64,000 nt of DNA from Ampullaceana balthica (taxonomy: Eukaryota; Mollusca; Gastropoda; Lymnaeidae), in the NCBI GenBank assembly GCA_944989445.1, contig CALYLW010000501.1, forward strand, positions 1 to 64,000, read 5' to 3'. The translations under genes and the position numbers were made by a program. The notes below the pieces were generated by a model. The model worked only from the letters and a program-made list of their open reading frames with translations, ran no database searches and had not been told where the DNA came from. Of this stretch, positions 410 to 43,900 are shown one piece after another; positions within the stretch are counted from its first letter, which is position 1, and every line of letters starts with the position of its first letter.

Positions 410-9558
<9,149 letters not shown>

Positions 9559-13183: not shown

Positions 13184-13274
13184 AGTCCGTCTTCCATAGA
13201 TCGTGATAGTTAAAAGAAAAAATGTTGACCCTATAGAAAAATAAACTTTAATATTCGCATTTTTCTCAAGTTTA

Positions 13275-14824: not shown

Positions 14825-15645
14825 TTCTTACTCTAGAATACTTGGTTCACTCATATCAGCAGACATTGGTTGTGGAACAAACTGAGTTGGTGTGAACCTG
14901 TCAGATCTGGTGGGATTGACAGATTCACACTCATTATCTGCACAAGTTATTTTTAACTGGTCTGCATGTCTACGGACAATAAGTCCATTATTTGATTTTA
15001 CTTTATAAGACACAGGTCCTGTACATTGAACAATTTGACCTGGCATCCATTTTTCCCCTCTCCCATAATTTCTCAGATACACATTATCATTAACCCCAAA
15101 CTCTCTCTCAATAGATGTTTTGTCATTTTTGTGTATTTTGATGTTGGGAAACAGACCTTTGAACAGTTGGATGTAGTAGGTCAAGGTGAGTTTTAATTTG
15201 TCTACCACACAGCAATTCGCATGGTGCAACACCTGTTGTTATATGAGGAGTTGTGCGGTATTTGGCTAAGAACCTGTTAACTCTTTCCCTGAGAGAAAAT
15301 TTGTTACCGGTACCCATTTTTACCATAGCGGTTTTGAATATGCCTACCGCTCTTTCAGCCAAACCATTCCCAGCAGGATGATAGGGTGATGTGGTTATAT
15401 GCTCAATACCATTTGCTACACAAAACAGTTTAAACTCATGAGCAGTGAAACTAGGCCCATTATCTGAAACAATTTGATCAGGTAACCCATGAGTTGAAAA
15501 TATTTCCTTAAGTTCTATAATGGTATCACTTGCAGTGATTGTGTTCATGATTTTAACTTCTAACCACTTAGAATGTGAATCAATAACAATTAAGAACATT
15601 TTGTTCATGAAGGGTCCTGCAAAATCCATATCTCGTCGCCAATGA
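14825..15645 (-). pseudogene. Gypsy integrase remnant
   Basis: Minus-strand frame at about 15689-15123 shows the integrase core: MDFAGPF, the first Asp in FLIVIDSHSKWLEV, the second in SDNGPSF and the Glu in NGLAERAVGIF, in D,D-35-E-like order. A second frame (about 15160-14828) continues with VNDNVYLRNYGRGEKW and GPVSYKVKSNNG, a GPY/F-type C-terminal region. The break near 15150-15160 is a frameshift. The zinc-binding N-terminus and all upstream pol domains are missing. Non-functional as it stands. Confidence 0.85.
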
Positions 15646-15896
15646 AGTGGATTGAGATCGTATAATTCTAAGATAGATAATACAACCATAGATAAGCGTA
15701 GGACGCAATAATCTTCTGTATAGAAGGAGCGTCTGTAAACAGATAAGATAAGATAACAGACGAGAAAGCCATTTTATGTACGCCTTGTTTATTCTGTATC
15801 CAAAACGAAACTAAACTTGCAAGGGACATCACTCAAACATTTTAAGACTAATACAAGAGAATGAGTTCCCCCAAGAATAAAACTTAATGTATTACA
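15643..15896 (-). repeat. LTR, right copy (5' LTR), with nested LINE tail
   Basis: Same ends as the left LTR, but interrupted at about 15686-15756 by the 3' tail of a LINE. The left LTR is the empty reference site. Confidence 0.85.
15686..15756 (+). mobile_element. About 71-bp LINE 3'-tail insertion in the LTR
   Basis: Sequence from CCATAGATAAGCGTAGGACG to AGATAAGATAAGATAA is the reverse complement of the end of the LINE at 45.03-45.11 kb, including the GATAA tail. A severely 5'-truncated insertion. Confidence 0.8.
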
Positions 15897-21248: not shown

Positions 21249-21494
21249 ATGAATGGCGCACTGAAGACGGCCATTGAACTATTTCTGACATTTGTCTGGC
21301 TGGTCGTGTGCGGGGCCCAGGTACTTGAACTCTACAACTACAACCCAGATTCACTGTATTCAAGCTGCACCAGAAAACTGGTTAACGAAGTTGACAAGTT
21401 CTCAGTGAGCTTCAAGGTCAAATATGCAGGTTTGACTGAGTTGGAAACTGCAGTGCTTGAAATCCTTCTGGCCAGCAGCAAGGATGTCAAGCCG
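21249..21494 (+). CDS. Gene B exon 1: signal peptide and first half of domain 1
   Basis: The ATG opens MNGALKTAIELFLTFVWLVV, a basic-then-hydrophobic signal peptide, with likely cleavage near CGAQ. It then encodes YSSCTRKLV and FSVSFKVKYAG. Ends KDVKP in phase 0 before GTACGT. The start is chosen because it gives the signal peptide. Confidence 0.75.
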
Positions 21495-24400
21495 GTACGT
21501 TACAGCAGTAGCATCTCGCGCTCTTTTTGTGTACTATTTAAAGGAATTAATGAATTTGTTCCGTTGATTTCCTTTGAATATTATTATTTTAACTGAATAT
21601 ATATATATATGTAAATATTCTTATTTAAGAAATTACAAGTTTTTTTTTAAAGTAATGCATAACAGTTGATGTCCACCTAAATTATATAATCTGAAAGACA
21701 CAGAAAAAGATATGCGCAGTACCTCTTCATTCTCAATTTCGTTAACGAAAAAGAAAATATTAACATTATAATTATTAAATTAATTTTCTCCCGTTATGTT
21801 AATGGCGTGGTTCCACCAAATCCGACAACGTAAGGTTTAAATGGCAACACTAAGTGACACTGATATTTTATCTCTACTCAAATGCTCTACTCACTTTTGA
21901 TACTTACTTCCTTTTCTTTTGTCCTGTGTCACTGTTAGTTGTTTTCGTTTTCTTTTTATCGCAACTTACTGATTTTTCCTTGATATAGAATGTCTTAGAT
22001 AATTTAAGTGTGGCCGTGTGCCCCCAAAACATACATGGGGCGCGTAGCTAGGGACAGTAGTAGAGCATAGGCTGTAATAGAATTGTACACTGTGTTTCCT
22101 GTGTTCAAATACTGAGACGTCAGTATTTCGTCAACCTTAGAAAATATGCATATACATATTATAACACTATAGTCCTCAATTGACCTGCATTGAGTTAGTT
22201 TGATTTTATTAGCTGTTCAGTCGGTCTTATTCAAACTAACAATATAGCCACCACTCGGCTACATAAGTATAACTTTAATACTTGTGTAAGTTATTGGTAC
22301 TCACAAAGGCAGTAGCCAAAACTGTATTCCTTTGTATCAGTTAATTAATACAGCTTTATTTTATTTGTTTTGATTACACAATTTGTTCGTGCATTTTGTG
22401 CAATACAGGAAAGGGTGACGACAATATACAAGTGGAGGGGTCTACCAGCGGTTGAGTTCCTCGTCAACGGTTCTTGCACTCCAACCCCGCCGGTCTACGA
22501 GAGTTTATTCGTCAAATGCACGATCGTGGCACGTTGCGAAATAGGTGAAGGTCGTCTCTACATGACCATGGCTCACCTGGGAGACGTTCTCAAAACTCAG
22601 GATGCCCTGATACCGAGAGTGTATCGTATGTGCCGCAATGAAATACGTTTTACATTTTATTTCATTTCAGTTTTTGTTGATAATAATGTGTTTTTTTTAA
22701 CTAGATGTATTCTGATTTTATATTTGTGCATCAGCTTGTTATGGCGTTGGAGTGCTTCAATACAATAAGCGCCAGCATTAAAAAATAAAATCGGTTGATA
22801 ATCGTAATGGGGCTTTCCTTCGAGGCGTGACCCAAAGAAGTATTACTTAAAGCCTAAGTTCCTCAAGATTTCTCAATTTTAACTTTATCATATTTAAATA
22901 TTTATCAATTCATACGACGTAGTGGGAAAAAAATTAAAAATGAGATATTGTCAGCGACATTTATTAAATACAGGTAGTTTTAATTAATAATAGAAAAATA
23001 ATATGCGAGTTTCTACCAAATTCATTTTCTTGCCTCCCTTCATGTATCATTTTTTTCTCTCTTCTTTCTTTGAAAATTATTTTTGTTAAATTATTGCAAA
23101 GCTTACAATGTTTTATTTACTTTGTGTTAGCCTGTATTGTTACATGAGTCACGGGGAGCCAAGACGTTGTTTGGATTACAACATAATACAAGTTATCATG
23201 TATCATTATGTTAATCACTCTAGCGTTTATTATAGAGTCCCACCGACCTCAATAAAGGAAACAGAACAAGCTTTAAAAATAATAGCATTCATTGAAAACA
23301 AGTACACCAAAAAACAAAAAAATAATAATAATAAATTTAAACCAAAAAAAAAGAAATGAAAAATGCATTTAATTTTATTCATTTAATGAAAAAGTTGGCT
23401 AATATAGACAATTTGAACCAACAATAAACCTTTGATGAACTTACTTTCAAAATAACTGTTAATTCACTGGAATCCGATTATTCTTATGTTGCTCTACTCA
23501 GCGAGCTTACATCACTGTTTTTGTCAATAACTAAACATTACTTCTTTTTTTTTCAAAAACAAAAAAAAGCCACGTGCTCTAAAGGCTTCGAGGAAAGACA
23601 AAGTAAGATGTCACTTGTTGATCATTTACAGTTGACCACTTAAGGTTTTGTTGGTTTAATTTAATTGTTTTTCATGAGTTATAATTGTTGTTCAGGCCTA
23701 AGGAAATAAACAGTTAAAGCTTGGCAAGCAATTCTTCGATCACTATATTTCTAGTCCCTTTGAAAGTAATTGGTCACTCGCCAATAATTTTACACAAAGC
23801 GTTTTTTAGTCTTCTTAATAATCTTTTGTTAATGTAAATGCTGATCAGAACTTTGTTAGTTCTTAATTACTTTTGTTTGAAAATGACACCTTCTTCTTGT
23901 TTAAATTTATCTTCTAATTACTTCCCATGAACACGTAATCTTTTTAACACAATATCTGACATTGATTTGAACATGTGTAATCCCATCTTTGCGACGACAC
24001 GTCAAGTTGATTCTCTGTCAGTGAATATCGATGGGAAGGAGGTGCTGGAGAGTCACAACTGTGTAAAGAAGTACGCCGCCGAAGCAAATCTCATCATGGA
24101 GTTCTGCGTCAAGGTCCATAACTCAAATATAACCCTGGTTTTAGAGAGAGATGGAATGACCTTCTTCAGCTATAAAGATGCTCGGTGCGGCAAAATATCG
24201 AGCCGCATCACTAAAAAGGTGGCCGTCTTTGAGCTGACGACGGTCGACGTCTGTGGAGTGCGGGCGAGGCTCCGTTGCGAATTTAGTAAGTAATTAGAAA
24301 ACATTAAGCATTTTTTCCCGCTTTTAAAATGGTTTAGTGGTGTGAGGTAAGAAATGGATCTTTTTTTTTAATTCTTCTGTGTGTGTGTGTTGTTGTTTTT

Positions 24401-27400
24401 TTGTTGAAAATTTTCTTATTTCTATAATATGTAGACTAATTCGCATCTCTGATCATTAAAAGTATAACACGCTGAATTTGAGACGATTATAGCTGGCCCC
24501 ACCTCCCAGTGATCTGAGGTTTCTCCTTTTGTTTCCTGAGAGGGAGCAAATGAAAGACAAAATCCTAACGAAGACATGAAGGTTGATGCAGATCTCTACG
24601 CCCGGTTATCTTAGGGAACTCTTTTTTTAAACCTGTACTGTAGGGGTTCTCAACTTTGAATCTATTGCGCAAAACTCATAAAAAACAAATGTCTACTATA
24701 GTCTTTGGAGGAATGTAAATATAATATAGAATCAGATGAGAGCCATGATCAAAAGGCAAGGTTCTTTAGGTTATAATACATTTTTTTAACTTAGGATTTG
24801 TGGAACACGAGTATGACATATGACATATCCGTCATATGCAACCTATAAACTGACTAAATGTGCGATTGAAACAAAGAAAATTGTTACATCGTTGATTGGT
24901 AAATGTAAACTTCTATTTCATCCCATAAAATTAATTTTGTTCGTCTCTTTTTGTCAGCTTTTATATTTCTTAGACACAATTTGTTAAAAGTGAAAGTAGC
25001 ATGCTCAAGGCTATTAGAGCTACCTTATCGTTATCATGTTTTTACAACTAGATTCTCATGTAATACCAAATGTTTAACTGAAGGTAGTGTTTCGTTTCAA
25101 TAATTTATCTATAAAAACATTCTTCTTGAAAAATTCAAATGAAATATTAATGTATTTGTTGAAAGAAAATAAGAAAAAAAATTAAAGTGAAATGTTTAAC
25201 CCTTTTTAAAAATTGTAAAATATAAAAGTTAACATTTGACAGCGTTAAAAAAATGTAACAATGATCTTACTATCGGTTTAACTTAATCTTGACAAAGTAT
25301 TCAAGAAACCAAAGAAGTTATGAAAAAAAAATTAAGGAACATTTCAAATTAATTAAAGAAGTGAACTAGATTGTTTTTTCTTTCCTTTTTAGGCGTTTTT
25401 GATAATACTGTCCGTATTCCAAAAAAAGTTAAAGAGCAGTGTAAGTATATTTTGGAGTAATTCACAGGGGGATTGGGGGTTAACGAGCGGGTTACTGACA
25501 CCTTGGACTGGCTACTGGGCTCTGACGTCAGGGTAAAACATGTGCTGTAGAGACTAGGTGTCCTTGTTTCCCGATGGGCGGGAGTGGAATGGGCTGCGAA
25601 GTACTTTCCACTGAAGCTGAGGAACTTGTGGAAAAAATACCTTAGTGAAGACTTGGCGACTACACAATTGACAGTCGACATGGAGACAAGAGCACGGCGA
25701 AGAGAGTAGGAGAGTCGCAGCAAGGAACGAGTGGGAGTAGCAGTCGCTGAATCTTTTATGTAATGGAGAAATAAAGGGAGACAATTACAATTGGGTTCAC
25801 GGTGGCCGAACGTCAGCGCGGTTTGGTCTTTGGTTCGGTTCTTGGTAAAGTTTGGAACCTATTCCACGAGTCATAAGGGTGCCCGTGAGTCCAAACTGCT
25901 CAGATGGGTACCCGACATGTTTTGGGGGAAATAAGGCGGTTGTGATTTGTACACAATCCACTGGTATGCCGTTGTATCTGAATCACGAGAAATCTTCTAG
26001 ACTTGCTGCAATAGACCTGGGAGGTCTGAAAGGAAGAATTGCAAGTGGTATTTTTTAATTATATTTTATCTACGTTGTTGATGGCTGAGGAATAGCACGT
26101 GAGGCATGGGAAGAGTTAAGGAGATAGGGACGACACGGTTTGTGTACAACGTTGGGCAGAGATAAGGAGATAGGGACGACACGGTTTACATACAACGTGG
26201 GGCAGAGATAAGGAGATAGGGACGACACGGTTTACGTACAACGTGGGGCAGAGATAAGGAGATAGGGACGACACGGTTTACATACAACGTGGGGCAGAGA
26301 TAAGGAGATAGGGACGACACGGTTTATATACAACGTGGGGCAGAGATAAGGAGATAGGGACGACACGGTTTACGTACAACGTGGGGCAGAGATAAGGAGA
26401 TAGAGACGACACGGTTTACATACAACGTGGGGCAGAGATAAGGAGATAGGGACGACACGGTTTACATACAACGTGGGGCAGAGATAAGGAGATAGGGACG
26501 ACACGGTTTATATACAACGTGGGGCAGAGATAAGGAGATAGGGACGACACGGTTTACATACAACGTGGGGCAGAGATAAGGAGATAGGGACGACACGGTT
26601 TACGTACAACGTGGGGCAGAATTATCTACGATATTTTCATACTTTTTTTTATTTGCACTGCCACAAGTTTATAAGTTAGGGAATAGTCAGTAGGATTTGG
26701 TGGAGATGAAAAAATGATTATTTTATTTTTTTTAAATACTAAAACAAGCTGTAACATACACAAAACATAAAACAAGGTGCACTTTTTAAAGAAATAAAAA
26801 AAAGAGACAGCAATAACTCAGATAAACAAATAAAATAACACAAAAACAATCCCGACAATACCTGTACTCAATTAGTATCAATGATAACATGGTTTGTTTT
26901 TTTAATTCTAAAAGTCCCGTTAACCTTTGTGGTTGTGATTGCGTCTGGCGTCCTGACCCTCCTTCTTTGTGGAATCGTCCTCTACACCAGTAAGTAGGCA
27001 CGATGACCACACATGCTACACAAGACACACCGAGTGTTATAAAGTGTGAAATAAGCAACACGCATGCGCACGCTGATACAGAGATGTAATGATTCGCCAG
27101 AAGCTAAATGTTATGTCTCCTGCAATTGCAAATATACACACAACATGTGTTTTCTATGTAAAATATAATATAACCATTACGTGCACATGGTGTGTGAATA
27201 CCACATTCACTGTGTACGCTTGCTGTTAACTTAATGCTCACATGAAATATTAAACAAATTTTAATCATATCCTGTTTTCTCCGTTTTCAATTATTCCATT
27301 CAACGGTCTACTTCTTTTAATCACTCATTTCTGTTCACACACTATGGACAACTGTAACTAGATACAAGCAATCATCTTTGTTTTCGTCACCACTTGTATT

Positions 27401-30101
27401 TTGTATATAATTCTTGCATTGAATAAATTATTTACAGCCCACAGTGTATTATACATATAACTTAAAATATTAAAATGTTGCAATAACAATTCTTCAAGTG
27501 AGTGATCTTTTGTTATGCGATACTAAATTTGTATAAAGTAAGGTTGTTTTTTTTTGTTGTTTTTTTAAAATGGGTATTATTTATATCCAGTCTATTAAGG
27601 GTTTAATATTAATACATTTTTTTTCCAAATGTGTAAATAATTATTTCTTCGATTTTATTCCTTAGAGCTGAAAAAGAAACCGCCAGGTAAGATCAACTTG
27701 TACATTCAATCCACCAAAAACGAGATTCCAAACATAAATCATTAAATGTTTTAGTAGTTATATAGTCGAATGTGTGTCTTAAATATTCATTTATTGTGGA
27801 TGTTATATTTTTTTTGTTTTGGTTTATTGTTTTTGTTTTGGTGTTGTTTTATTAATTTTCTAGTTTAGGCTTCATTTTTTAATGATGTGAAATATATAAA
27901 CACTATTAGATATTGGGTTTAAATTTTTTTCTGGCATACCAAACAATTTAAAAAAAAACAACATTCCTTTATTTCAGAACCCCCTAAAAAGAGCATAGCC
28001 CCACGTAAGTAAATAAGCATATACATATACTGAAGTTAAATATGATAAAATTAGCAATTTTTTTTTAAATGGTCCATTCAAAGTGGAGAAAAATACACAA
28101 ACAGTAATTTGTAGAAAGCTTTGGTGATTGAATATAGACTTAAAGAATTACAATTAAATGTTATTAATTATCATCGACCTTGAACCTCATTTGAACTTCA
28201 CAGTGATTGTTTTCAGTGATTTGGTGCGTTTTCGCACCATTAAAATTTCAAAATAATTGTTTTTAAGCAGTCATATGCCAAAAAATTGTTGTTGTTTTTT
28301 TTTACTGGGCACTCTATTATAAATTTCCATTGAAGTGCAACACAATATGTCTTTAAACATTCAAAGCCAATTGTGGTCGCAAACTTTTCTTGTACAAACT
28401 CCTTTTATCGATTTCATTATTTTACACAGTTTAGGGTTATTAAATCGCCACTTAAAATAACATGGTACTATTTCCATGTTACTACTTCCACCACACACAA
28501 TGCCATGTTACTACTTCCACCACACACAATGCCATGTTACTACTTCCACCACACATCATGCCATGTTACTACTTCCACCACACACAATGCCATGTTACTA
28601 CTTCCACCACACACAATGCCATGTTACTACTTCCACCACACACAATGGCATTCTACTACTTCCACCACACACAATGCCATGTTACTACTTCCACCACACA
28701 CAATGCCATGTTACTACTTCCACCACACACAATGGCATGCTACTACTTCCACCACACACAATGCCATGTTACTACTTCCACCAAAAACAATGCCATGTTA
28801 CTACTTCCACCAAACACAATGCCATGTTACTACTTCCAACACACACAATGCCATGTTACTACTTCCACCAAACACAATGCCATGTTACTACTTCCACCAC
28901 ACACAATGCCATGTTACTACTTCCACCAAACACAATGCCATGTTACTACTTCCACCACACACAATGCCATGTTTCTACTTCCACCAAACACAATGCCATG
29001 TTACTACTTCCACCACACACAATGGCATGCTACTACTTCCACCACACACAATGCCATGTTATTACTTCCATCACACACAATGCCATGTTACTACTTCCAT
29101 CACACACAATGCCATGTTACTACTTCCACCACACACCATGCCATGCTACTACTTCCACCACACACAATGCCATGTTACTACTTCCACCACACACAATTCC
29201 ATGCTACTACTTCCATCACACACAATGCCATGCTACTACTTCCACCACACACAATGCCATGTTACTACTTCCACAACCCAAAATGTAATGACAGAAAATA
29301 ATTGAGAAGCACTTTTTATTCCCACGTGACTGTTTTAAAAAGTGCTTCAGATCCAGATGATAGATGCTTTTTTTAAAAACATAATTATTGACAATATCCA
29401 TGAGACGGATTTTTAAATGTACATTTGCCATGGCACTTCCTAAACCTTCCCATTTAAATGTTTACAAACATCATTCCAATAATTCATAAACAGAGGCAAT
29501 CGATTAAAATCAACGTATTGTTTCATCCACAGGTAAAACAATAGGTTCGTAGCTCATGTTATGTTGTTTGTTTTTATTAAAGTAAGAAAAATAATAAATC
29601 ATTAGGAAAGTAAAAAAATATACACAATTTAATAATGAATGTTGGTTTATCAATGAACAGAAAGTAAAAAAAAAGTAAAACAATTAAAGAATATTTACAT
29701 TAGTGTTTACATTTAGCCGCTGAGAAGTGTCAAAATCAATAGTGCGATCGCCACACAAACTAAGCTGCGTGGAATCTAGCCCATGCTAAGCCACGATAAA
29801 AACTTGTTGGTGAATGACTATTGCTGAAAATAAATAAAAGTAAAAAAAAAGATTTTTAAAAACAACGTTTTTATAAGCGGACTAAAAAGAAGAAAATATA
29901 TTTTTCCCCCTGAATGGTGAAGTAAAAATCTTTTTCTGGATTGATAAAAATGTCAAACTTATATGCTCAAGTACTATGATTAAAACGTGGGCGGGCGCTT
30001 CTCAGGCTTAAATAATTCAATTCACTCAATTTCTTACTCGTCATTTGTAAACCCTAATCATTTTAGCTAAACGCCTAAAAAGCTCCTACCGATGTTTTTA
30101 T

Positions 30102-30187
<86 letters not shown>

Positions 30188-30606
30188 CAGTGCTAATCAC
30201 AGCACGATTTTTAAACTAATTTTAGAAAGCAGCGCACCAAATTACTGCACCAATGCATCCAAAGAAGTGCAAATTAAAGATGTGCTGTAAAAAATATTAT
30301 ATGACGTCATTGTTTGAGCTCATATTTTCATTTTGGAAAAGGGAACAATGTAAAAAGAGGATTTGATGATGGTTAATTATAAAATTAAAAAAACAAAGGT
30401 AGGCGCCCTACAACCTCTATTATAAAATACTTTGTGTACATTTCAGAAAGTTTAATATTTCGTATTTACCGTATTTATCAAACAAGGATAAGTTAGTTGG
30501 GCTTTTGAAAAAGGTCGGCGCCGTAGGCATCCTAAAAAAGTGCATTTTTTCAAGAGAAATAGATTTCAGCTGAAAACGTTCGTCATTTTTGACGGGTGAT
30601 ACGCTA

Positions 30607-30653
<47 letters not shown>

Positions 30654-33600
30654 AATTTAAGCGTAAAACTGAAAAATAAATAAAATAAATACAATTTAAA
30701 AACAAATGTTTCTAATTTTAAAATTTAGGATACGTTAGTTGATTTAGCAAAAAATGATATGCTAAGACATGAACGTTCTACTTGGTCTTGAAATGGTGAA
30801 AATGTTATTTAAATCAACATACAATTTATATTCTAAAATGTTTTTGCATTTTTGTACAACTGACCATCCAAATCCGTTACTTAAGCGTAGGTGTTAGGCA
30901 TACATATATGAAAAGCTTCCAGGCAGCTATACATTCATAAGTAAAATTTTAAAGTTTACTTTTCATTGATTATGTCCGTAGACAACGTTATTAATAAATT
31001 AATAATTATTTTCGTACAACTATTTCGGCAAACATTAATTTCATGATTAATACCTCTCACAACATTTTAGATTTGAAAACAAATAATTACATCTTAACAA
31101 TTATATATTTTTTCTAAATGATAATCTTTTTTTATAACTTTGTCCAATTAGTGTTGTTTTTTTTTAGGCACGAGGAAACTATCTATTCTTAAACATCCAT
31201 GAAGATCATAATATTTTTATTTGAGCAAAAAAAGTGTTGATTACGAGAATAATTACAAAATCCTCTATTTAAAATATAATTTCTCTTTTCAGTTGCTCCA
31301 GTTGCTATAAGCAGAAAAAGTAAGTTAAAATTCTATGAATATTTTTATTTTAAAAAACTTGGCAATAAAACGAGTTTTGTATAATTTGAAAAAAAGCAAG
31401 TTTTTGAAGTATATACAAGAAATTCGTTTTATTCTGACATGATACTGATTGGTTCATAAAAGTTACCTCTTCTAACTTACTTAAGGTTTTAAAAAACAGT
31501 CAAGAAAAAACAACATACTTTTAAGTCTATCGGCACTTGACATTAACCATCTTTTAATGTGTTCTTGTCATTTTTTCCACTTTTTTTCTTTTCTTTTTTT
31601 CCTATTTAAATGGTATGTTTTTGTTTCATAAGAAATTCTGGAGCAAGACGTAAGAGAACGGTGCTTCACTAGATTAGTTTTTAAATTGGATGTTTTCAAT
31701 TAAATGATGAAAAAATTCTAGCACAAAAGTATTATATTTTATGTTTCTTTTCTTCGTTTAAAAAAAAGGTATCATAGCTTTCAAAATAATTCCTATTGTT
31801 AAATAGTTTTTGTTTTTATATCCTTTCCTAGACACTGAAAGAAAGAAAACTGTTGGTAAGTTAATATTCTAAAGAAAAAAAAATGAGTATAGCCTTCATA
31901 GCAACGTTTTAAATAAATGATAATTGTGAAGTTTTAGACCGACACATTATCCTTCAAATAGAAAAAATATTAGAGAACTTATTCTTATTAAAACAATTTT
32001 TAAAAATGTGAAAGTAGACTGTTCTTTTAATTTAAATTACGGTTTATTATTGCTGATATAATTTATGTGTTAGAAATAAAAGCATTGTTTCAAGTGTTAA
32101 GACAGCACAAAAATAAATATTTATCGGGCTCATTCTTAACTTTGAAAATTAATAATGCATACGTGATAAATAAAATCAATAAATATGTTTTTAAAAACAT
32201 ATCTTATTACATCATATCAAGACATCGAATGTTTCGTTTTCGTAAGATAAGTACAGAAATAATTCATTGCAAAGAAATCTGTGCATAACAATGTTAAATA
32301 CATGTATCAAGAACTAAAAACTTCAAATAAATTCAAGAAAATTAGGAAAAAGTCATACTTCAAAAAATGTTAGCAGTCTACTTGTTTTAATCATGACTAT
32401 TATTTCTTTCATTTATCTTTTGGTCTTCCGCTGTATAGGTGATGTTCTTACAACCCGTACAATCACATTAGAAATTTATGTGTAGTGAAGGCTAAAAATA
32501 TTAAAATATATTTTTCAAAAAATTAAATGATGTTCTGAAAACTTTGATTTTTAAACAATTTGTATTTTTAAAAAAATACATGTAAATAAGATTGTAATAT
32601 TCTGAAGTGGATTATCTCACTCAAATTTTTTTTAAAAATAATTCTTTTAATGTCTTTGTGATCTAATGTAGTATTCAGTGCTTCAACTGTGTTCAGCATA
32701 TGTGATCAGTTTAATTGAGTAGGCTCTATTTTATATTATTAAATTTTAAAAGAAAAGTATGCACACAAAAACAAAGTCTGCTGTTAAAATCTCAATATCG
32801 GGTTTCTATTCCCAGATGTCATTGAACCACTTGGTAAGTCTGTTCCATTTACTTATTTATCTATTATTTGGTGTTTTTTTTTGTGTTTTTTTTTGTTGTT
32901 TTTGTTGTTTTTTAATATATTTTTCTTTCCAGACAAGAGTTAACAAATTTTAATATGATACGCGTTTTGTAAACACCGTTCGTTCACCTCTGAACATGTT
33001 TATATTTCACGGTCTCCGTAATATTTTCAGTTTAGATTGTCATATTTGTTTCATATTTGTTGAATAATATCCAGGCCTGACTGCACTTTATTGAAATTAA
33101 ATTTGATTAACAAAAAATTTAGGAAAATATATTTCAACTCAGTACGTGGTATCCATTTGAAATGTTCATAGAGAGTAACACATTCAAATTCGTATTCACC
33201 ATCCTTTTTTTTTAGTTAGCTCTTAAAATATAGTAATCTATGGCTTGAAAAAATATCACAGATGGACTCGAGCATTCTTTTAAATTGTTCTACTTTGTTA
33301 TTAAACGTTTTCCGAGAAACACATTTTGAGACATTGCATTTAAATAATGACAATATGACTTGTTGCACATTATAGTTATTATTCGCATTTTCTCTCATTG
33401 ATTGTTTTCTTTGTAAAATAATGCATCTTTTAAATAAATTAGTGTTACAACCCCGTATTGAATAATGTAATCTTTAACATCTCAAACTTTTAGAAATATA
33501 TTTTTATGTTCTACGATAAAAGTTATTTTAAGTAACAAAAATGTCAACAACTTTATGGAAAACATAATAGCTTGTGAAATTATTAAACTACGTATTCTTA

Positions 33601-35792
33601 TGTACAAAAATTTAACTTACGTTTAAAAAAAATATTCTCAAGACTTGTCTGTCTAAAAATATTTTATAAACATTAAATGGAATCATTTACGTTAAAATTG
33701 TTCTAGATATTTACATTTATAAAATCTTATCAATATTTATTGTTTCTTTGGACTGCTACTACATGATGGTTTGTTTAAAAACTGCTTTCCATCTTCAACG
33801 TTTAGGACAACAATAAGACTTGCTTAAAGTCGTAACGTGCAATGATTTATTCTACTCAATCCATCTACCGTCATCGTCTGATAGGGAAAATATGAATTCG
33901 TTTATTGTTGATTAATATCATTGCTCAGTAGAATGATGTCAATGATTAACTCTAATCCCTGGATTTTTCTAGATATATAGACATACATTTATAGTAAAAT
34001 TAATAGAAACATATTTATTGTTTTTATTATATTAATTCATTCAATACAAGTTATTACATAGTTAATTATAAGTGAATTTTAATGTTTCTTGAGCATATTT
34101 TGATCAATAAAAAAGTGTGACCATTTTTATTATTAATAAAACCTATAAAACAGATTTCGTAACAAATACTTGAATAAAGTCACTGTAAACATTAGCTTTC
34201 TTGTAGTTTTATGACAACGTGTTACATTAATGCTATCCCCTCTAGTTCACCCCTTACAAAAAATATTACTTTTCGTTGCAGTTGTCGAGCCAGTACCGGA
34301 GCCGGAGCCAGCGCCACCGCGTAAGTCCACGAACCATCAAACAATATTTAGTTGGTTAGATAGTGAATGGAAATATTGACATAACAAAGTACCGGTATTC
34401 TTAAAAGTACACTTTTATGTACTGAAAATCTATAGTATTTTTAGGACTTAAATTAGACAATCGATTCCATTGCTCGCTGCAGAAGCTCACCTTTAAAGGA
34501 TCATTACTTTAATTTGCTTGTATGTATGGAATCTTTCCATCTACGAGAGATGATAGATTTATCCTTGTAGATGCACCTCTCGGTGTGGCTGGTGAGACCA
34601 ATCTTGGGGTGTCAGTCTCTTTTGCATTTCCAAACACGAATGCGATAGGCCGTTTTGCCTGGCCTTCCTCTTCGCTCTTAAATTCCAGCTGTCACCGCCT
34701 TGTTTCGTTCCTTGACTCGAAGTGATCCTTCCTTCATGATTTCCCAACCGTTCCTCACCAGGGAAAGCTTATTGGCAGTTTAATTATAGTTAAAATACTT
34801 TGTATTTTTTCTGTGAGAAAATTGTTTAACTTCTTGTATTTATAGCCTATTTTTTATGTTTTATTTGTCATCCCCCCCAAAAAAAATCCGTTATCCAGCT
34901 TATATTAACAAAAGATGAATAAACACACAACGCTACTGAGCAATAGTGTGCTTAATATATCTAATATAACACGCGATATTTAGAAGAACAGCTTATTTTG
35001 CCATACCTCAATAATTTATTAGGATGAAAGCTTCTCTTACCTTATATTGCGTTTCAAAAATGTAGATGGCTTTGCCTTTCGATTTAAATCCACCTTGAGA
35101 GTGAAGGTAATTTTATGACCATACATTAAATAAAAAATTCAAGACAAATTACCAGCCTCCAATAACTGTCTTGGTCGAAGTACGTCATTATAGTTTGTGC
35201 TAGCTCTTGTACAACCGCCAACGGTATCTATTCCCGTTGAGATTTAAAGCACGTGCCTTTTAGATCACGGCGTTATAGCGAACCTCTTTCATTGAGCTCT
35301 CAACCATTGTATTACAGCCCCTGATCCAAAGCGTCGTTCTACTGCTTCTGGACACTCATCATTGGTTGGATCTATGATTCATATGCTCCCACGGAGAAAA
35401 ACTCATCATGAAGAAAAGAAATTAGAAACACGTAATAACTATTTAAATTTATTAAAAAATTCATTTATGTCTTCGTTTTATGCTTGATTGTCTGTACACA
35501 TTGTATTTAATAATTGAAATTTGGTCACGGGTTAGGTAAAAAAACTGGTAATCAAATCTTGATGGGGTGTTGAAGGTATCTGTCCATGAACGAAAAATTA
35601 CCCGAATCCTTCCTTTAGGCTCAGCAATACATTTCTGAAGGGTTTGATTAGCTTTTATTGAATAAAATTGTGTTTCAACTTGTTATAAATTCAAATACAA
35701 TATCAACGTTCTTTTTTAAACTTTATTTCTTTATTTACTTCTGTTAAAATTATTATTATATTTTTTTTTCAGATTCAACGTTCATATACTAA
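21249..35792 (+). CDS. Gene B: two-domain Ig-like single-pass receptor with micro-exon tail
   Basis: Exons 21249-21494, 22409-22625, 23570-23602, 24007-24285, 25393-25440, 26915-26989, 27666-27686, 27978-28004, 29533-29544, 31293-31319, 31832-31855, 32439-32456, 32816-32833, 34282-34320, 35318-35431 and 35773-35792 sum to 1218 nt: 405 residues and a stop, without an internal stop. Order: signal peptide, two cysteine-paired domains of Ig-like size, short stalk, one membrane helix (26915-26989), then a tail of about 130 residues made of micro-exons. Except at the first intron (phase 0), all boundaries are phase 1. The tail is basic and proline-rich (LKKKPP, EPPKKSIAP, VEPVPEPEPAPP). Likely a plasma-membrane receptor or adhesion protein; ligand unknown. 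Exons 23570, 29533 and 32439 are less certain. AATAAA lies at 35920. Confidence 0.75.
22409..22625 (+). CDS. Gene B exon 2: second half of domain 1
   Basis: Phase 0 start after CAATACAG, phase 1 end before GTATGT. Encodes YKWRGLPAVEFLVNGSC, a Cys-x13-Cys span (ending LFVKC), TIVARC and an acidic GDVLKTQDAL region. One N-glycosylation sequon, NGS. The paired cysteines resemble those of domain 2. Confidence 0.72.
23570..23602 (+). CDS. Gene B candidate exon 3 (TCSKGFEERQ)
   Basis: 33-nt phase 1-1 segment with a GTAAGA donor but a purine-rich, weak acceptor (AAAAAAAAG). Skipping it keeps the frame: exon 2 to exon 4 gives Leu, with exon 3 it gives Pro and Ile at the junctions. Confidence 0.4.
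24007..24285 (+). CDS. Gene B exon 4: Ig-like domain 2
   Basis: 279-nt phase 1-1 exon encoding a whole domain. Its C-V-x12-E-F-C-V span (CVKKYAAEANLIMEFCV) aligns without gaps to CVLRLNAGGKHTFELCV of gene C exon 2, and both are followed by an N-I-T/S sequon. Three further cysteines follow (DARC, VDVC, LRC). The acceptor GTCAAG lacks a good pyrimidine tract but is the only AG that fits the frame; the donor GTAAGT is strong. Confidence 0.75.
25393..25440 (+). CDS. Gene B exon 5: stalk
   Basis: 48-nt phase 1-1 exon between CCTTTTTAG and GTAAGT, peptide VFDNTVRIPKKVKEQ. It ends in T; the next exon supplies TC (Phe). Joined instead to exon 27666-27686 (starting AG) it would create TAG. Confidence 0.75.
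25480..26060. other. Less A+T-rich island in gene B intron, unidentified
   Basis: Contrasts with its A+T-rich surroundings and includes CACGGTGGCCGAACGTCAGC. The composition suggests an inserted element, but I see no transposase, terminal repeats or recognisable coding. Confidence 0.35.
26105..26622. repeat. 46-bp minisatellite in gene B intron
   Basis: About eleven units containing GATAAGGAGATAGGGACGAC and GGTTTACATACAACGTGG; variants differ mainly at CATACA, CGTACA or TATACA. Lies between the stalk and membrane exons. Confidence 0.95.
26915..26989 (+). CDS. Gene B exon 6: transmembrane helix
   Basis: 75-nt phase 1-1 exon encoding PLTFVVVIASGVLTLLL then CGIVLYT, a single hydrophobic helix of about 23 residues followed by a Lys-rich exon, which fits type I topology. 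Donor GTAAGT. Confidence 0.8.
27666..27686 (+). CDS. Gene B tail micro-exon (K-LKKKPP)
   Basis: 21-nt phase 1-1 exon after ATTCCTTAG, donor GTAAGA. Basic stop-transfer-like juxtamembrane segment with the first prolines. Confidence 0.72.
27978..28004 (+). CDS. Gene B tail micro-exon (E-PPKKSIAP)
   Basis: 27-nt phase 1-1 exon between TATTTCAG and GTAAGT. With the previous exon it gives KKKPPEPPKK, a possible SH3-type proline-basic segment. Confidence 0.72.
28476..29282. repeat. 29-bp minisatellite in gene B intron
   Basis: About 28 units of CATGTTACTACTTCCACCAC plus ACACAATGC. As 29 is not divisible by three and the unit has no stop, all three plus frames stay open and predict the same 29-residue peptide repeat in rotation; this is not evidence of a gene. 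Confidence 0.96.
29533..29544 (+). CDS. Gene B candidate 12-nt micro-exon (R-KTI)
   Basis: Phase 1-1 segment between CATCCACAG and GTTCGT. The acceptor is good, the donor weak. Skipping it joins the neighbours in frame. Confidence 0.35.
   Translation, partial: VKQ
30103..30185. repeat. (TA)n, left of Helitron-like insert
   Basis: Pure TA repeats, continued at 30608-30650 after the insert. Confidence 0.95.
30186..30607 (+). mobile_element. Non-autonomous Helitron inserted in (TA)n
   Basis: The right end has a CGTCA-TTTT-TGACG hairpin followed by GGTGATACGCTAG and T, matching the end of the Helitron at 19.3 kb. The internal AAATATTATATGACGTCATT matches 16213-16248. No coding. It splits one TA tract, giving an exact 3' boundary. 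Confidence 0.78.
30608..30650. repeat. (TA)n, right of Helitron-like insert
   Basis: Continuation of the interrupted TA tract. Confidence 0.9.
31293..31319 (+). CDS. Gene B tail micro-exon (V-APVAISRK)
   Basis: 27-nt phase 1-1 exon between CTCTTTTCAG and GTAAGT, both strong. Confidence 0.7.
31832..31855 (+). CDS. Gene B tail micro-exon (N-TERKKTV)
   Basis: 24-nt phase 1-1 exon after CCTTTCCTAG, donor GTAAG. Basic, with two threonines. Confidence 0.7.
32439..32456 (+). CDS. Gene B tail micro-exon (G-DVLTT)
   Basis: 18-nt phase 1-1 segment after CGCTGTATAG with a GTACAA donor. If the donor is not used the frame runs to a TAG about 30 nt further, so it could also serve as an alternative last exon. 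Confidence 0.45.
32816..32833 (+). CDS. Gene B tail micro-exon (D/H-VIEPL)
   Basis: 18-nt phase 1-1 exon between CTATTCCCAG and GTAAGT. The junction residue is Asp if the preceding exon is 31832-31855 and His if it is 32439-32456. Confidence 0.68.
32834..34281. other. Gene B intron, nothing else seen
   Basis: A+T-rich. A T-rich acceptor near 32931 would lead to an immediate stop (Asp-Lys-Ser-stop); otherwise no supported feature. Confidence 0.4.
34282..34320 (+). CDS. Gene B tail micro-exon, proline-glutamate repeat
   Basis: 39-nt phase 1-1 exon between CGTTGCAG and GTAAGT, peptide VEPVPEPEPAPP. G+C-rich against its surroundings. With the next exon it forms a run of prolines and then basic residues. 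Confidence 0.75.
34512..34775 (-). mobile_element. LINE 3'-end fragment
   Basis: On the minus strand one frame reads VWKCKRD, stop, HPKIGLTSHTERC, the C-terminal zinc-finger-like motif of the LINE family also seen at 39.3 kb. The 3' end carries a decayed form of the CGTCTCGCGAGACG palindrome found there. Confidence 0.6.
35318..35431 (+). CDS. Gene B penultimate exon, conserved C-terminal module
   Basis: 114-nt phase 1-1 exon after TATTACAG: PPDPKRRSTASGHSS, LVGSMIHMLP, RRKTHHEEKKLET. Homologous to the gene A terminal exon in the pattern SS-[LF]-[VI]-x-x-M, KT and EKxxE[ST]RN. It ends C|GTAATA. The same bases also read CGT AAT (Arg-Asn, conserved in A), and read-through stays open to a TGA at 35485, so an unspliced alternative C-terminus is possible. 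Confidence 0.72.
35773..35792 (+). CDS. Gene B last exon (H-STFIY-stop)
   Basis: Follows a T-rich tract and CAG; phase 1 entry gives STFIY and TAA at 35790. The polyadenylation hexamer AATAAA is 128 bp downstream. Chosen over read-through of the previous exon because both splice sites fit, but this is undecided. Confidence 0.5.
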
Positions 35793-37933: not shown

Positions 37934-37986
37934 TTAATTGACCTCTGTCATTACTACTGTCGCATCATCAGTATCGCGGAAGTAAT
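37934..37986 (-). CDS. Gene C last exon
   Basis: Phase 1 entry after TTTTCCAG; YFRDTDDATVVMTEVN then TAA. Strongly acidic before the end. The preceding junction codon G+AT gives Asp. Confidence 0.7.
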
Positions 37987-40900
37987 CTGGAAAAGCAAAA
38001 CAAAAACAGCATGCATAAAAGTGTCTTAATATGACAACTTAACATTCCCTTCGTCCTCGTGTTCCCAAAATATAAATAATAGTTGCAATTATCAAGTCTT
38101 GTTAAATTTATTCAAATTAATAACATTCTCAAATTTTAAAAAAAAATAATAAAAATAAAAATATATTACACAAAAGAATACTTCATTAATGTCTTCGTAA
38201 TGAAAATTTTGTTTTAATGATCATACTGTAGGAAAAGGTTTAATCTTATCCGACTACTTTGATAGTATAGGACGATGCAACCATTTCTGCTATATCACGG
38301 CTGTGCAAGGAATTGTTACACACATGAAATATATTTGTATATAAAACAATTCAAATTATTTTGATTCCAATTTCAATACCAAAATCAATCAAATAGATTG
38401 AAGACTATCAAACAAACAAATTAATACACACAAATTGATTCATTCATGAACAATTCCCAGAGTATAAGGCGTGTTTGTGAAGTAATTTGGAAAAGTAGAT
38501 TTTAAAAAATACATGAAAAGAAAGCGATTCCCGAATAAAGTTTCTGAGCGTGGGGTGGTACTGATTAAAAAAATATTTTTTGATTAATCGGGAAAACATT
38601 AATCGATTAATCGAATAATTTCGATTAATTATATTTTTATAATTCATAGATAGATCCCGTTAAGTTGCGATTCATTATTCCACGAAATCGGTTACGTCGC
38701 GGTAATTCCATGGCTCTAAAATTTTGTGACGTAACACAACCAATTCGTTCTGCTATGCAAGAAATAAGGAAGAAAACCCTTTTGTGTACATATGCACGTT
38801 TAAATAAATATTTACGAAGGAACAGTATGTATGTAACAAAACATACAAATTATTAATAAATTGGTTTTAAAAAAATTAGAAATATTTACTTCAATTTTAA
38901 TCGAAATTTAATCGATTATATTAATTTTAATCAATAAAAATGTTTAACGATAAATCGATTAATTAATCGTAAATTGTCGCAGCTCTAATCTGAAGACATT
39001 AAAATTTAATGAAAGCTGCATTCAAATTCATAGATAATGCTTTGTAGAGCAATTAAGTGTTTGAAAGAGTACTTACCAAGACCATCAACGTCTGACTCTG
39101 TTTCTGCATGCAAAAAAATACAAACTTACAGTACAATAAGACAATCTTGTCTTATACAAAAGTTTAGCTAATAAGAAAAAAATGGACGAAAAGCAAACAT
39201 TTTATTTTAAACGACTTCCCCATTTACATTCAGTGAATGCTCGTGTTTTGACACAGACAATAATAATCGGCATCCTTCCGTCTCGCGAGACGATGGTGCA
39301 TCACCGTTGAGTTGGGTTGCATTTCTTCGAGTGGCTGTGCATTTCTATCATTGAGTGACAGTCTTTACCACAGCTGTTACACACGAGTTCTGTGCTTCCA
39401 AATGTTTTGGCCTTTCTCCTAGCTCTTCTTTCTGTAGCCTCCTCCATCCTTCGCTCCTCTTTGACAACTGTGCGCCACGTAGTTCGGTCTTCTGCCTTAC
39501 ACCCCCAGTCGGTTGTGCGTATTCTGGCTGCTTTCATGTCCCTTTGTCAGACATCTTTAAATCGCAGACGTGGGCAACCGCTCTTCCCTTTTCCCGATGC
39601 CAGTTCTCCATATAGGAGGTCCTTGGGGATGCGTCCAAGGCTGATTGACACAGACAATGAATATAAGAAAATGTGTTACTTACCAAAAGTAGTTGATGGT
39701 GCTAAGCTAAAACCTGTAGATTCCAAAGACAGTAAAGAAGTGAGTGTCGTAAAAATCTTGCAAAAAAATCTATTCATTATCAACATGCGTTACGCTTGAG
39801 GAGATTTCATGTCAATGTAGAAACCACGCCTATAAAGTTTTATAATGATGGTTCACTTACGAGAACACTTGCTTTCCAACTAATCATTGCGTTTGTAATT
39901 AAGAATTAATTAGGAAAAAATACATGTGTTTAAAAATGAAATTACCCTTGCGCAACAATGAACTTTGGTATTAAAAGAGTGTCGCATTAAAAATACCTTT
40001 TGAAATTATTTGTTTTTCCTGTTTGCGTATAATATAAATCTATACAAAGATTCAATGTCTCTGAAACCAAAGTTTTCTAGTTTTTTTTAGTTTTTATTTA
40101 TTTGTTTTTTTTTACAGCTTCAGTTCACTAGAGGTTTAGGACAAATTAGAATCACAAGGTTCTATTGTAACTTTTGGTCGAACCGAGATATTCGCGTTTG
40201 AAAATTTGATTTTAGTAGGCCTGTATCGAATTAGAAAATTATTCTGCACTTCCCACACAATTTTCTCAAGAAACAGCTTTCATATTTTCACCATGATAGA
40301 TTAATACATGGACCATAAACCCAGTGGCTATAACTGATGTTGGTCACAAATTCGAACTTGTTATTGTAAGGGGGGCGCAATGCTTTGCTCACCCGTTATT
40401 AAATACATGTTTTACAAATAAGATACTAACATTGCTTTTTTATGCTTACATTTTAGTTCTAATCACCATGTTTAACCTATGTCCAAGATGCAATAATATA
40501 ACAGCTTCAGTCAGGGGCGGATTAAGACTGCACGGGGCCACTGGCTGCAATTCAAACTGGGGCCCTATCCAGCCAGCTTCCCCTTAAATAAAATGATTTC
40601 CAGCAGCTAATATAAGACTGTAACTTGTAACTCAATAGTTCATCGGTTCCTTTAACATACTTGGTCTGTACTACGGGATCGGCCTTCCCAGCCAAAGATT
40701 ATTCATGAAAAAATGGAATATGAAGAAATAACTGTTTGCCGGTATCCTAATATTGAGTGTAAAAATACAATTTTTAAAAAAAGTGGTGCCCACGCCGGGA
40801 ATCGATCGCGTGACCGCTTGCACAGCAGGGCGACTTTCTACCTCAAGACCAGACGAGCCTGATGAAAATTGTGAAGTTTAAAAATATAAAATTAGTTTTT

Positions 40901-43900
40901 TTTAAATTAATTTTTTTAATGTATGATATTTTCAGGAATTCATGCAAACATTTGTCCATCTTTCTTATAAAATATACTACATTTGGGGGCCCCTAATCAT
41001 CGGGGGCCCCTGGCTTTAGCCCGTTCAGCCCCCCCCCTTAAATCCGCCATAGGCTTCAGTGTGCCCATTTCTAGTTTTATACATAAAACTTTAGCAATTT
41101 CTATCTTTCAAACTGCTAAAAATACATTATTTCCTTTTTTGACATTACATTTATTTAAGATCGTGATTTATTTATTTCGACTGTTGTTCTTTTCTAATCC
41201 CTTAATAACGAAAATAAACCTAAGAAATGAAAAACACTTGTTACTTTTAATTTAAGTAGCCTTTCTTCTATTTCAGTATTGAAATATTGCACAGGCAATG
41301 ACTAAGTAGGCAAATTGTTTATAGGACATTGAACGCTGATAACACCGCTGTTGTAGCATGTATTAAACTTCATCACTGCGGCTTTTGATGCCTTACTCAT
41401 ATACACGTTAATTACAGGGAACAGAAACCGTAACATTTTTTCAAACTTACTTCTTTCGAATTTGCTAAGTCTTTCTTCGGAACTATTGAACCCTAAAGGA
41501 AAAATTAATGTTTCTTTTGTTAAAAAAAAACTATATTTAAGACGTCTATCATGTACTGCAATTTCGATGTGGTATTTAGTGTCATTTAACAAACTCTTAC
41601 ATTTATTATCGATACCCGAAACACAATCTTTGTATTAAAGAAGTAATACAATAATTTATTTCATCAAATTATACCTATGTAACGATAGTTCGAAAGTAAA
41701 ATGACAACCACAACCTAATAATTTACTAATGCAAAGGAGCAACATTTTTAATTTGTATTATACATTTTTTAAAAACCGGTTACAGTTTTAGCTTATTCTT
41801 ACAAATACACCGTTAGATTGGGCCCCTAGTTTAAGTACACATTTTAAATTTCTGAAATTTACGAAAGGAAGACAGCTATGATTGACCTAATGTGTAGAAG
41901 GTGTGAACAACCCAACCATAAACACCTCCCCAAACCCCAGAGGCGTAACAACGACTTGGCATCGGGGCAGTTGCCAAGGGCGCCGAGGGCTAAACCTTCA
42001 ATAATTTATTTATTCTGTATAATTTACTATTTTCCCTATTTCTCAAGGGCGCCAAAAATGAATTAGCCAAGGGCGCTGAAAACCCAGTTACGCTTCTGCA
42101 ACCCCCCCCCCAAAAAAAAACATCCATAAACTGTTCTGACACATAATCTATCCACAAACCGCCAAAATCAGGTCACATCAGTCCAAAAAATAGAATCAAC
42201 TACTTACCTGAACCAGCATGACTTTTGCCTGTGGCATTGCTTTGCACTGCTGTAAGTAAGTATAAGTAAAACAGGTTTGATCAAATATTTTATTAATCAG
42301 TTTTAATATCCAGACTTTGATGAGGTTCATCAATCGCAGTTGTCGATATAATGTCATCATTTAATTCATTAATTCCCTGCTTAAACGCTGCTAGATTTAC
42401 AATCTTGGGTCGTTCACTCGTCACTGTTGCTGAAAAACTCTCTACTTCATTTTATCTTATATTAACCTTTTATTGTTTAGTACAAGTAGCAGTCCTATAA
42501 ATGTTACAGAAATTTAACAGTCGATTTAGCAGCGACCACTTGATCAGCTGAAGGCCCATGGGCATAGGTATGGGGAGGGGGCAAGGGGGAATTCCCCCCC
42601 CCCTTACATTTTAGAAAAATGTCATAATTTGTTACAATAAAACTGAACTAAATTTCCTGAAAGTTTATTACATTGAAGACATTTTACATATATCAAACAT
42701 AAAAAAGAACTATATCTGCAAGTATAACTGATACATTACCTATTATTTTAAATATTCCAGTTGTTTAACAATTTCTGTCATATTTTCAGAAAAAATCCGC
42801 AAGCTTTTATATTTATGTGTCCATCTAGTTTCACATAACAATTTAACATTTGGAATAAGTTTTCTTTGCTGGATACTTTCTCGAAAACACACTATAACTG
42901 AATTGATTGTTCCTATTGTGTTTCGTTAAGCCTTCACATTATTTAAATCGCTCATGACAAGATTTAGTTTATGTGAACTGCAATGTACCAATCGTGCTAT
43001 TGGGTATTTTTTTCCAATTATTGCTTGGACTCCTCCTTCTTTAACTGGCATTGTAGAACATCCGTGGTATCCTTGACCAACAAGCTTTGTCATATCTAAT
43101 CCAAATTCTAATGAATTTTTAATGATGGTGTTGGCTAAACCTTCGGCTGTTTTATCGACAATTGGAATATATCACAGGAATGCTTCTGTGACCATTATTT
43201 TCCCATTTTGTTCTTTGACAAATCTAACACCAAGTGACATCTGCTCAATGCCTGAAATGTCATTTGTCTCGTCGAAAAGTACAGAAATTGCAACTTCTTC
43301 TTCTTCTAATTATTATTTTGGCCTGTGACTTAGCCTTGGCTAATACATGCGCAACCCGCCTCATCTGCTGAGCAGTGCCCTACAGCACTGTCTTCACGTA
43401 GGACTCTTTTGCATCCCTAACCTCCCCACTATGTCTAGCGCGGGACACGAAGTTAACAAGTGTAGTACTGTTTCAGTGGCTAGGCTCCAATCATGGCAGT
43501 TCGAGTCCCAGTCATCGTCTAGCCTGTTAAAATATGAGTTAGTTGGGAAGTGTTCTTTTCGCATTTGCGTCACTAAATTCTGGTGTTTGCGACTCAAAAT
43601 CCACCACTGGTCTGATCGGCTTGGCATGGGCATGTTAGCGAATACTCCCCCTGTTAGCGGAAACAACACGCAATATTTGCAAAAGGCACCTTTTAACATT
43701 TGCGAGTATACAAGCCACTGTGAAAAGTCTGATAACCATGCATATCTAAAAATTAAAAAATGTGTTTCCCTCACTGTCAGCTCTAAAATCATAATTTTTA
43801 TAAGGGGTCCAACAATCACGAATCAGCTGCAATTTCAACTCATTTGAAAGGTCGTTTGTCCAGACATACCTTCCAATATCCAATTTAGGGAATGAATAAA

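Follow-up and report, generated by a model that had tools for sequence, protein, structure and literature searches.

A probable tandem cluster of single-pass receptor genes with micro-exon cytoplasmic tails in the gastropod Ampullaceana balthica

The first 64 kb (hereafter the window) of the 726-kb contig CALYLW010000501.1 (C501) from the Ampullaceana balthica assembly GCA_944989445.1 (1.097 Gb, 3363 contigs) probably contain the beginning of a tandem gene cluster for divergent single-pass membrane receptors whose cytoplasmic tails are encoded by strings of micro-exons. This appraisal is a joint one, covering the cluster, the five-cysteine extracellular domain, the micro-exon tails and the functional steps proposed below. 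The gene plan comprises one or two extracellular exons bearing the five-cysteine domain, a transmembrane (TM) exon and a string of micro-exons of mostly 12 to 51 nt, to which the tails of genes A and B add one exon of about 115 nt. On C501, genes B, D, E, F, I, G and H each combine an ectodomain match with a TM-like exon, the single-pass topology being predicted. Five cysteines are invariant in all ten aligned ectodomains (D, E, F, I, two from G, H, B and the genes on contigs C799 and C2136), while only three remain invariant when the degenerate frame C is added. Further ectodomain relatives were found on C140 and C1372 in genome searches with single proteins, and the micro-exon tail design is present on three contigs (C501, C2136 and C140).

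A previous reading of the window (the sequence-only reading) had proposed a receptor family with tails of symmetric phase-1 micro-exons, and this is borne out by the statistics of splice-site pairs and by what duplicate genes conserve. For the former, acceptor-donor pairs 12 to 60 nt apart were collected with generic splice matrices at a threshold of 8, length and frame being ignored, in nine tail intervals of C501 (98.6 kb) set by hand from the TM exons (for A and C, from the earlier note). Candidates were not edited by hand, neither here nor in the Markov control and the comparison of candidates between genes G and H. The sense strand yielded 68 pairs, 51 of them with a length divisible by three (3n) and 49 of these 51 open in phase 1, versus 19 pairs on the antisense strand, of which three were 3n and one was open; the picture is alike at thresholds of 7, 9 and 10. 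Compared to an expected third, the 3n fraction corresponds to p = 2.5e-12, and the comparison of sense with antisense to p = 4.4e-6. Order-3 Markov copies (30 replicates, C and D merged) gave a mean of 18.4 pairs (maximum 29) with 6.4 being 3n (maximum 11), so that the sense tails hold 3.7-fold more pairs and 8-fold more 3n pairs.

A greedy pairing variant (exons up to 160 nt, threshold 8) gave 3n pairs open in phase 1 in 4 of 6 tail pairs of B, 3 of 9 of A and 4 of 8 of C/D, with none on the antisense strand of each. On the minus strand at 55-64 kb (part of the E tail) and 14-21 kb, 2 of 9 and 1 of 2 pairs qualified, with none on the plus strand of both, and Markov copies of the B tail gave a mean of 0.29 (maximum 2). 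This signal is weaker because long false pairs absorb short exons. An earlier splice scan with very strict cut-offs found nothing useful.

Tandem duplicates provide the second line of evidence. C501 carries such a pair in genes G (118.6-137 kb) and H (137.8-165.6 kb), and seven of the eight short 3n candidates in the G tail are retained in H, all seven open in phase 1 in both genes and with identical lengths of 30, 39, 30, 21, 21, 21 and 18 nt. Pooled, these exons agree at 160 of 180 positions without a gap, and the flanks agree at 1081 of 1564 and contain 146 gap columns (p = 3.3e-9 if these columns count as differences, p = 5.9e-5 if they are left out), and intron lengths are as unlike as 362 versus 4351 nt. 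Taken singly, five of the seven exons exceed their own flanks. An eighth tail exon of 18 nt is common to G and H, and dN/dS amounts to 0.094/0.218 for the tail (eight exons), 0.205/0.301 for the first ectodomain (ecto1) and 0.070/0.321 for the second (ecto2). Similarly, five micro-exons of the duplicates O and P on C140 (one lying between the ectodomains, with two each in stalk and tail) agree at 145 of 159 positions with no gaps, compared to 872 of 1103 with 76 gap columns in the flanks (p = 1.5e-4, or 0.038 without gap columns). Hence, taken together, the micro-exons show the behaviour of mildly constrained coding exons. By eye, G and H also share a near-identical stretch of about 150 bases (134602-134750 and 164004-164150) above the surrounding level, possibly the last exon with the 3' untranslated region or another constrained element. 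On C140, stalk micro-exons of 36 and 30 nt at 256417-256235 and 232861-232679 are apparently tandem duplicates, and a 15-nt exon sits between the two ectodomains.

If the exons were chance splice-like sites in AT-rich introns and the real tails short, the roughly 18 pairs arising even in Markov copies would be expected, and some threshold candidates are indeed false, namely one at 46674-46630 inside the frame of a long interspersed nuclear element (LINE) and five on C2136 (44.1-44.4 kb) which, judged by their spacing, belong to a repeat of about 54 bases. However, the 3.7-fold and 8-fold excesses, the conservation in two duplicate pairs and the antisense control render this explanation highly improbable; for the family as a whole it is regarded as refuted by the pair counts, the Markov control and the G/H retention. 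Decay of most of the cluster, leaving pseudogene fragments (C and a second copy of the 117-nt exon of A) and exon strings as relics, is considered unlikely as well. Frame C is short of two cysteines with no TM exon found behind it, the contig start interrupts gene A and transposon frames occur in the window, but in B, G and H the modelled exons all keep an open frame, and dN is lower than dS between G and H in the tail, ecto1 and ecto2.

Several observations nevertheless weigh against functional micro-exon tails in this form. The splice matrices are generic rather than species-trained. Eight further loci (C799, C2136 and C501 164-194 kb; 145 kb on both strands) also yielded 40 pairs, 24 of them 3n and 20 open; this reads as further family members, and the loci are not a clean negative control because C2136 bears family genes and the first 2 kb of locus L022 fall within the H tail. 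Between G and H, the exons t1 (0.83 versus 0.83 in the flanks) and t5 (0.71 versus 0.73) are no better conserved than their flanks, whose values are higher still without gap columns, and two non-3n pairs are also conserved on the sense strand, both overlapping accepted exons. The absence of conserved antisense candidates says little, as only one and two 3n candidates exist there. Fast exon turnover is not seen in this pair, since seven exons are kept at dS of about 0.2-0.3, and the 15-nt exon of C140 is less alike than its flanks (0.73 versus 0.87). Gene B is without a close duplicate here, and the support for its exons therefore comes from splice scores, from the pattern of the family and from a single weak homology. 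Motif matches in the tails are plain pattern counts, and both the exons and their use are predictions from genomic DNA.

For gene B, the sequence-only reading had counted up to nine tail exons of 12 to 114 nt, all 3n and in phase 1. Seven of these are supported, each 3n, in phase 1, open and bounded by both splice sites. The first six lie above the splice-score cut, and the 114-nt exon leans on homology to the gene A exon at 9434 (37.8% over 37 aa, E = 0.007 in a small database). The two extra exons, taken to be a 12-nt one at 29533-29544 (donor score 0.5) and an 18-nt one at 32439-32456 (donor CCC/GTACAA judged poor by eye), both on the plus strand, were not accepted, and the range accordingly becomes 18 to 114 nt. 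That any exon could be skipped without a frameshift holds by arithmetic for the accepted exons; the combinatorial cassette system that the sequence-only reading derived from this is a hypothesis. In gene B, the intron between exons 1 and 2 is in phase 0, while all modelled introns from the exon 2-3 junction onward, the extracellular ones included, are in phase 1. One tail intron of B carries a tandem array of a 29-nt unit (28 copies, 93% matches, 28474-29285), and GC skew is -0.338 at 28001-30000; a 46-nt repeat (11 copies, 96% matches, 26108-26620) lies just upstream of the TM exon.

Table 1. Modelled exons of the putative receptor genes in the window.
Gene	Feature	Position	Strand	Splice scores and remarks
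A	tail exon, 27 nt	410..436	+	13.8
A	tail exon, 27 nt	1859..1885	+	3.8/2.0, weak sites
A	tail exon, 21 nt	2048..2068	+	10.8
A	tail exon, 27 nt, VDASVDDI	2753..2779	+	8.6
A	tail exon, 33 nt	3527..3559	+	8.6
A	tail exon, 33 nt, tyrosine motif	6208..6240	+	2.5/4.2
A	tail exon, 36 nt, ITIM-like SVYNDV	7486..7521	+	-0.4/3.2, weak acceptor
A	tail exon, 117 nt	9434..9550	+	homology to 114-nt exon of B
B	exon 1, signal peptide (by eye) and extracellular start	21249..21494	+	ATG open frame, donor; 37.5% identity over 80 aa to C799 gene
B	exon 2, extracellular	22409..22625	+	sites by eye; 37.5% over 72 aa to C799 gene
B	exon 3, five-cysteine extracellular domain	24022..24285	+	acceptor picked by eye
B	stalk exon, 48 nt, phase 1	25393..25440	+	
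B	TM exon, 75 nt, phase 1	26915..26989	+	hydropathy 2.83 over 19 aa
B	tail exon, 21 nt, LKKKPP	27666..27686	+	3.8/7.7
B	tail exon, 27 nt, PPKKSIAP	27978..28004	+	7.7/4.3
B	tail exon, 27 nt, APVAISRK	31293..31319	+	7.7/3.9
B	tail exon, 24 nt, TERKKTV	31832..31855	+	3.4/4.2
B	tail exon, 18 nt, VIEPL	32816..32833	+	5.3/4.2
B	tail exon, 39 nt, proline-rich VEPVPEPEPAPP	34282..34320	+	5.8/3.1
B	tail exon, 114 nt	35318..35431	+	weak donor GTAATA, -1.4
B	last coding exon, HSTFIY-stop	35773..35792	+	acceptor TTTTTTTTTCAG, by eye
D	five-cysteine extracellular exon	52241..52528	-	
D	TM exon, 72 nt	49702..49773	-	
D	first tail exon, 30 nt, NEKLYCFKK	49247..49276	-	13.3
D	tail exon, 21 nt	44573..44593	-	7.3
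D	tail exon, 42 or 39 nt	42208..42249	-	12.1
C or D	tail exon, 30 nt, uncertain	39684..39713	-	8.1
C or D	tail exon, 27 nt, TESDVDGL	39077..39103	-	11.2
C or D	last coding exon, YFRDTDDATVVMTEVN-stop	37934..37986	-	
E	tail exon, 39 nt	63482..63520	-	6.8
E	tail exon, 45 nt	62639..62683	-	9.9
E	tail exon, 33 nt	62265..62297	-	2.6/3.8, below splice-score cut
E	tail exon, 45 nt	61661..61705	-	15.0

The design had also been said to recur in A, C and D, which stands for A, with eight tail exons, but is less clear for C and D, of which D has ectodomain, TM and tail exons. Gene A is truncated by the contig start; five of its tail exons are above the splice-score cut and three have weaker sites, and a candidate at 6137 (score 7.1) was dropped. 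The 117-nt exon of A and the 114-nt exon of B have the weak donor CAC/GTAAT in common. Reading through this donor in A adds two residues before a stop (RN-stop), which would provide an alternative end by analogy with intron read-through in BG genes. A direct duplication of 87% (8694-10020 and 11864-13184) bears a second copy of the 117-nt exon (12605-12721), whose frame continues beyond the donor site to 12879. The ectodomain-like frame taken as gene C (41305-41634) is without two of the five cysteines, and a TM exon was looked for behind it and not found; hence, the exons from 39713 to 37934 may be the tail of D or a remnant. A LINE-type element on the minus strand (45117-47623; endonuclease E = 2.1e-12, reverse transcriptase E = 9.7e-15) lies in the tail region of D. 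A fifth tail, that of gene E, occupies 63520-61661, with the TM and ectodomain exons of E outside the window. Elsewhere in the window, a PIF1-like helicase frame (17737-18927, plus strand, open reading frames from 16374; Pfam PIF1, E = 6.7e-36) is probably part of a Helitron element, and an integrase core frame (rve, E = 4.8e-12) at 15126-15773 on the minus strand is probably a remnant of a long terminal repeat (LTR)-type element.

Across the family, a list of 85 exons was compiled from 92 threshold candidates, of which 15 were discarded by hand as transposon or repeat sequence or because site or spacing did not convince, with eight added from below threshold, so that counts derived from it are a matter of judgement. 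Tail exon numbers in this list are 15 for I, 9 each for G and H, 8 for A, 7 for B and 2 for P; 14 of the 85 exons are 21 nt long and 60 are at most 36 nt. An all-against-all comparison found 19 pairs with a score of at least 9, versus 0-1 in codon-shuffled sets. As only pairs of G with H, O with P and within J scored, base-level alignment fails between the micro-exons of distant paralogs. Below this cut, resemblances by eye exist between the 30-nt exons NEKLYCFKK of D, ISKKRCFKM of E and NKQQGCFKK of I and between TESDVDGL of C/D and SDDVDGL of K (C2136, 33027-33004). Tandem duplicate micro-exons are represented by TSVDPK/TNVDRK on C2136 and, by eye, NDSTESYTNSQ/NDSTEIYSN in the C140 stalk.

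The extracellular part proved to be without a named domain in a Pfam scan of five family proteins, in which only sub-threshold matches appeared (BVU_2266-like, E = 0.0084; IFT122 propeller, 0.023; Ets1 flank, 0.026). An immunoglobulin (Ig) ectodomain is unsupported, as there was no Pfam Ig match in these proteins and the sub-threshold matches belong to three unrelated families; FN3 and TMEM154 were likewise not found in the five. Sequence comparison of the ectodomain with PDB reached only E = 0.8 at best, a protein search with gene B found none of 3802 candidates at E of 1 or lower, and structure prediction for the ectodomain from just two sequences gave a mean predicted local distance difference test score (pLDDT) of 34.3 with no residue at 50 or above. 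Two ectodomain hits, at 151536-151802 on C1372 and 6938-7204 on C2136, are equal in length, score and identity, and stem either from a recent duplicate or from one locus assembled twice as two haplotypes.

In the mechanism proposed for these genes, a ligand would bind the cysteine-containing ectodomain and the micro-exon tail would pass this binding on to signalling. The tails would act as series of short linear motifs of basic, proline-rich, PPxY and tyrosine type that may lengthen and shorten via duplication or insertion of frame-neutral exons. Since the tail exons are frame-neutral, evolution can gain and lose motifs freely, and splicing could do so, too; by analogy with chicken BG genes, inclusion in the mRNA is probably variable for some exons. 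The candidate motifs are SVYNDV, which fits the consensus of the immunoreceptor tyrosine-based inhibitory motif (ITIM), and YTEI in the tail of A, PPPY, a WW-binding pattern, in I and a proline-rich stretch in B. Depending on the preceding exon, the A exon at 6208 reads QDYTEI (after 3527) or, with intervening exons skipped, IHYTEI (after 2753) or SDYTEI (after 2048), the latter two fitting the ITIM consensus, for which a chance match is not rare. A combinatorial code, in which the junctions formed by skipping would create or abolish signalling motifs as at this tyrosine exon, is considered improbable; if true, an individual blood cell of the snail could adjust the same receptor to carry an inhibitory or a neutral tail.

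Considerably more weight, only a little short of an even chance, is given to micro-exons that are real but constitutive, with symmetry and phase 1 as a by-product of frame constraint and no combinatorial code. As all modelled introns from the exon 2-3 junction of B onward are in phase 1, an exon arising there has to be 3n and in phase 1; by this reasoning, phase-1 introns tolerate only such insertions and uniform phase 1 is no proof of alternative splicing. Constitutive use also agrees with the same seven exons and splice sites being present in G and H. On the other hand, some sites are weak (the A 7486 acceptor at -0.4, the A 1859 donor at 2.0 and the B 35318 donor at -1.4), which would suit variable inclusion or equally a wrong exon border, and variable splicing is described for the tails of BG and BTN3A.

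To the sequence-only reading, this tail architecture was unknown among described receptor families, a view contradicted by the short tail exons of chicken BG genes and butyrophilins. BG genes encode clustered, polymorphic single-pass receptors of the butyrophilin family at the B locus of the major histocompatibility complex, with tails assembled from exons of 21 nt (a few of 18 or 24) in which the first codon is divided into 1 + 2 bases; the number of small exons differs by gene, from 13 to 36 in one haplotype, BG1 carries an ITIM, and alternative splicing is largely intron read-through (PMC5938342 and PMC4046983). The snail family is alike in that a series of small exons, their codons split in phase 1, builds up the tail. 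In contrast, BG exons are nearly all of 21 nt and encode coiled-coil heptads, versus the 21-nt minority in the 85-exon list, and BG ectodomains are Ig-V, a fold family without a Pfam match in the five snail proteins scanned. As BG is a vertebrate system, the likeness is presumably convergent. Butyrophilins (BTN3A) have several very short heptad exons right after the TM segment, and some transcripts lack one of them (PMC6790196); unlike the snail genes, they have few such exons, mostly followed by B30.2, and Ig ectodomains.

Schistosome micro-exon genes (MEGs) possess many short symmetric exons of 36 bp or less that can be removed without a frameshift (PMC8293314). They are parasite genes from another phylum with products facing host immunity, not receptor tails, and their predominance of exons up to 36 bp is not matched here, since the extracellular and TM exons are longer. 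Nor is this a schistosome gene facing a host, as TM exons are present and the genome bears gastropod-type ELH genes (Pfam, E = 1.1e-61; found in 0 of 14 control genomes) with RLRF-type peptides, a single gene family that points to a freshwater pulmonate snail. A search for mitochondrial COX1 gave no hit. Among invertebrate immune receptors, shrimp Dscam (PmDscam) reportedly has a highly diverse cytoplasmic tail; the tail diversity of this Ig/FN3 receptor is not known to come from micro-exon strings.

In content, the closest known systems are the PTC1 (GRC) and PTC2 clusters of single-pass (TM1) receptor genes in Biomphalaria, which share with the present family the tandem arrangement of single-pass TM genes (one TM segment is predicted here). 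FN3 occurs in four PTC1 genes and TMEM154 is also among the PTC domains, in contrast to the five proteins scanned here, although these domains characterize only some PTC1 genes; in B. sudanica and B. glabrata an extracellular FN3 exon is variably expressed. Tail exons are not described in the available parts of the snail resistance-locus literature, where in part of the papers neither "cytoplasmic" nor "splic" occurs in the main text, and the open-licence PMC literature held nothing on micro-exon tails in mollusc receptors among the matches listed. Thus, the micro-exon receptor tail plan itself is already known from chicken BG genes, and what is new, as far as seen, is its occurrence in a family of mollusc genes whose exons vary in length and do not code for 21-nt heptads, together with the five-cysteine domain.

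Gene finders tend to miss exons of 12 to 30 nt, and annotated tails of such genes may therefore be wrong. If the A. balthica cluster is of the same kind as the snail clusters that control schistosome resistance, or operates as they do, its tails bear on how such receptors may signal. The family would represent a molluscan convergence with the BG tails of birds, and points to strings of frame-neutral micro-exons as a route taken repeatedly in the evolution of receptor tails.

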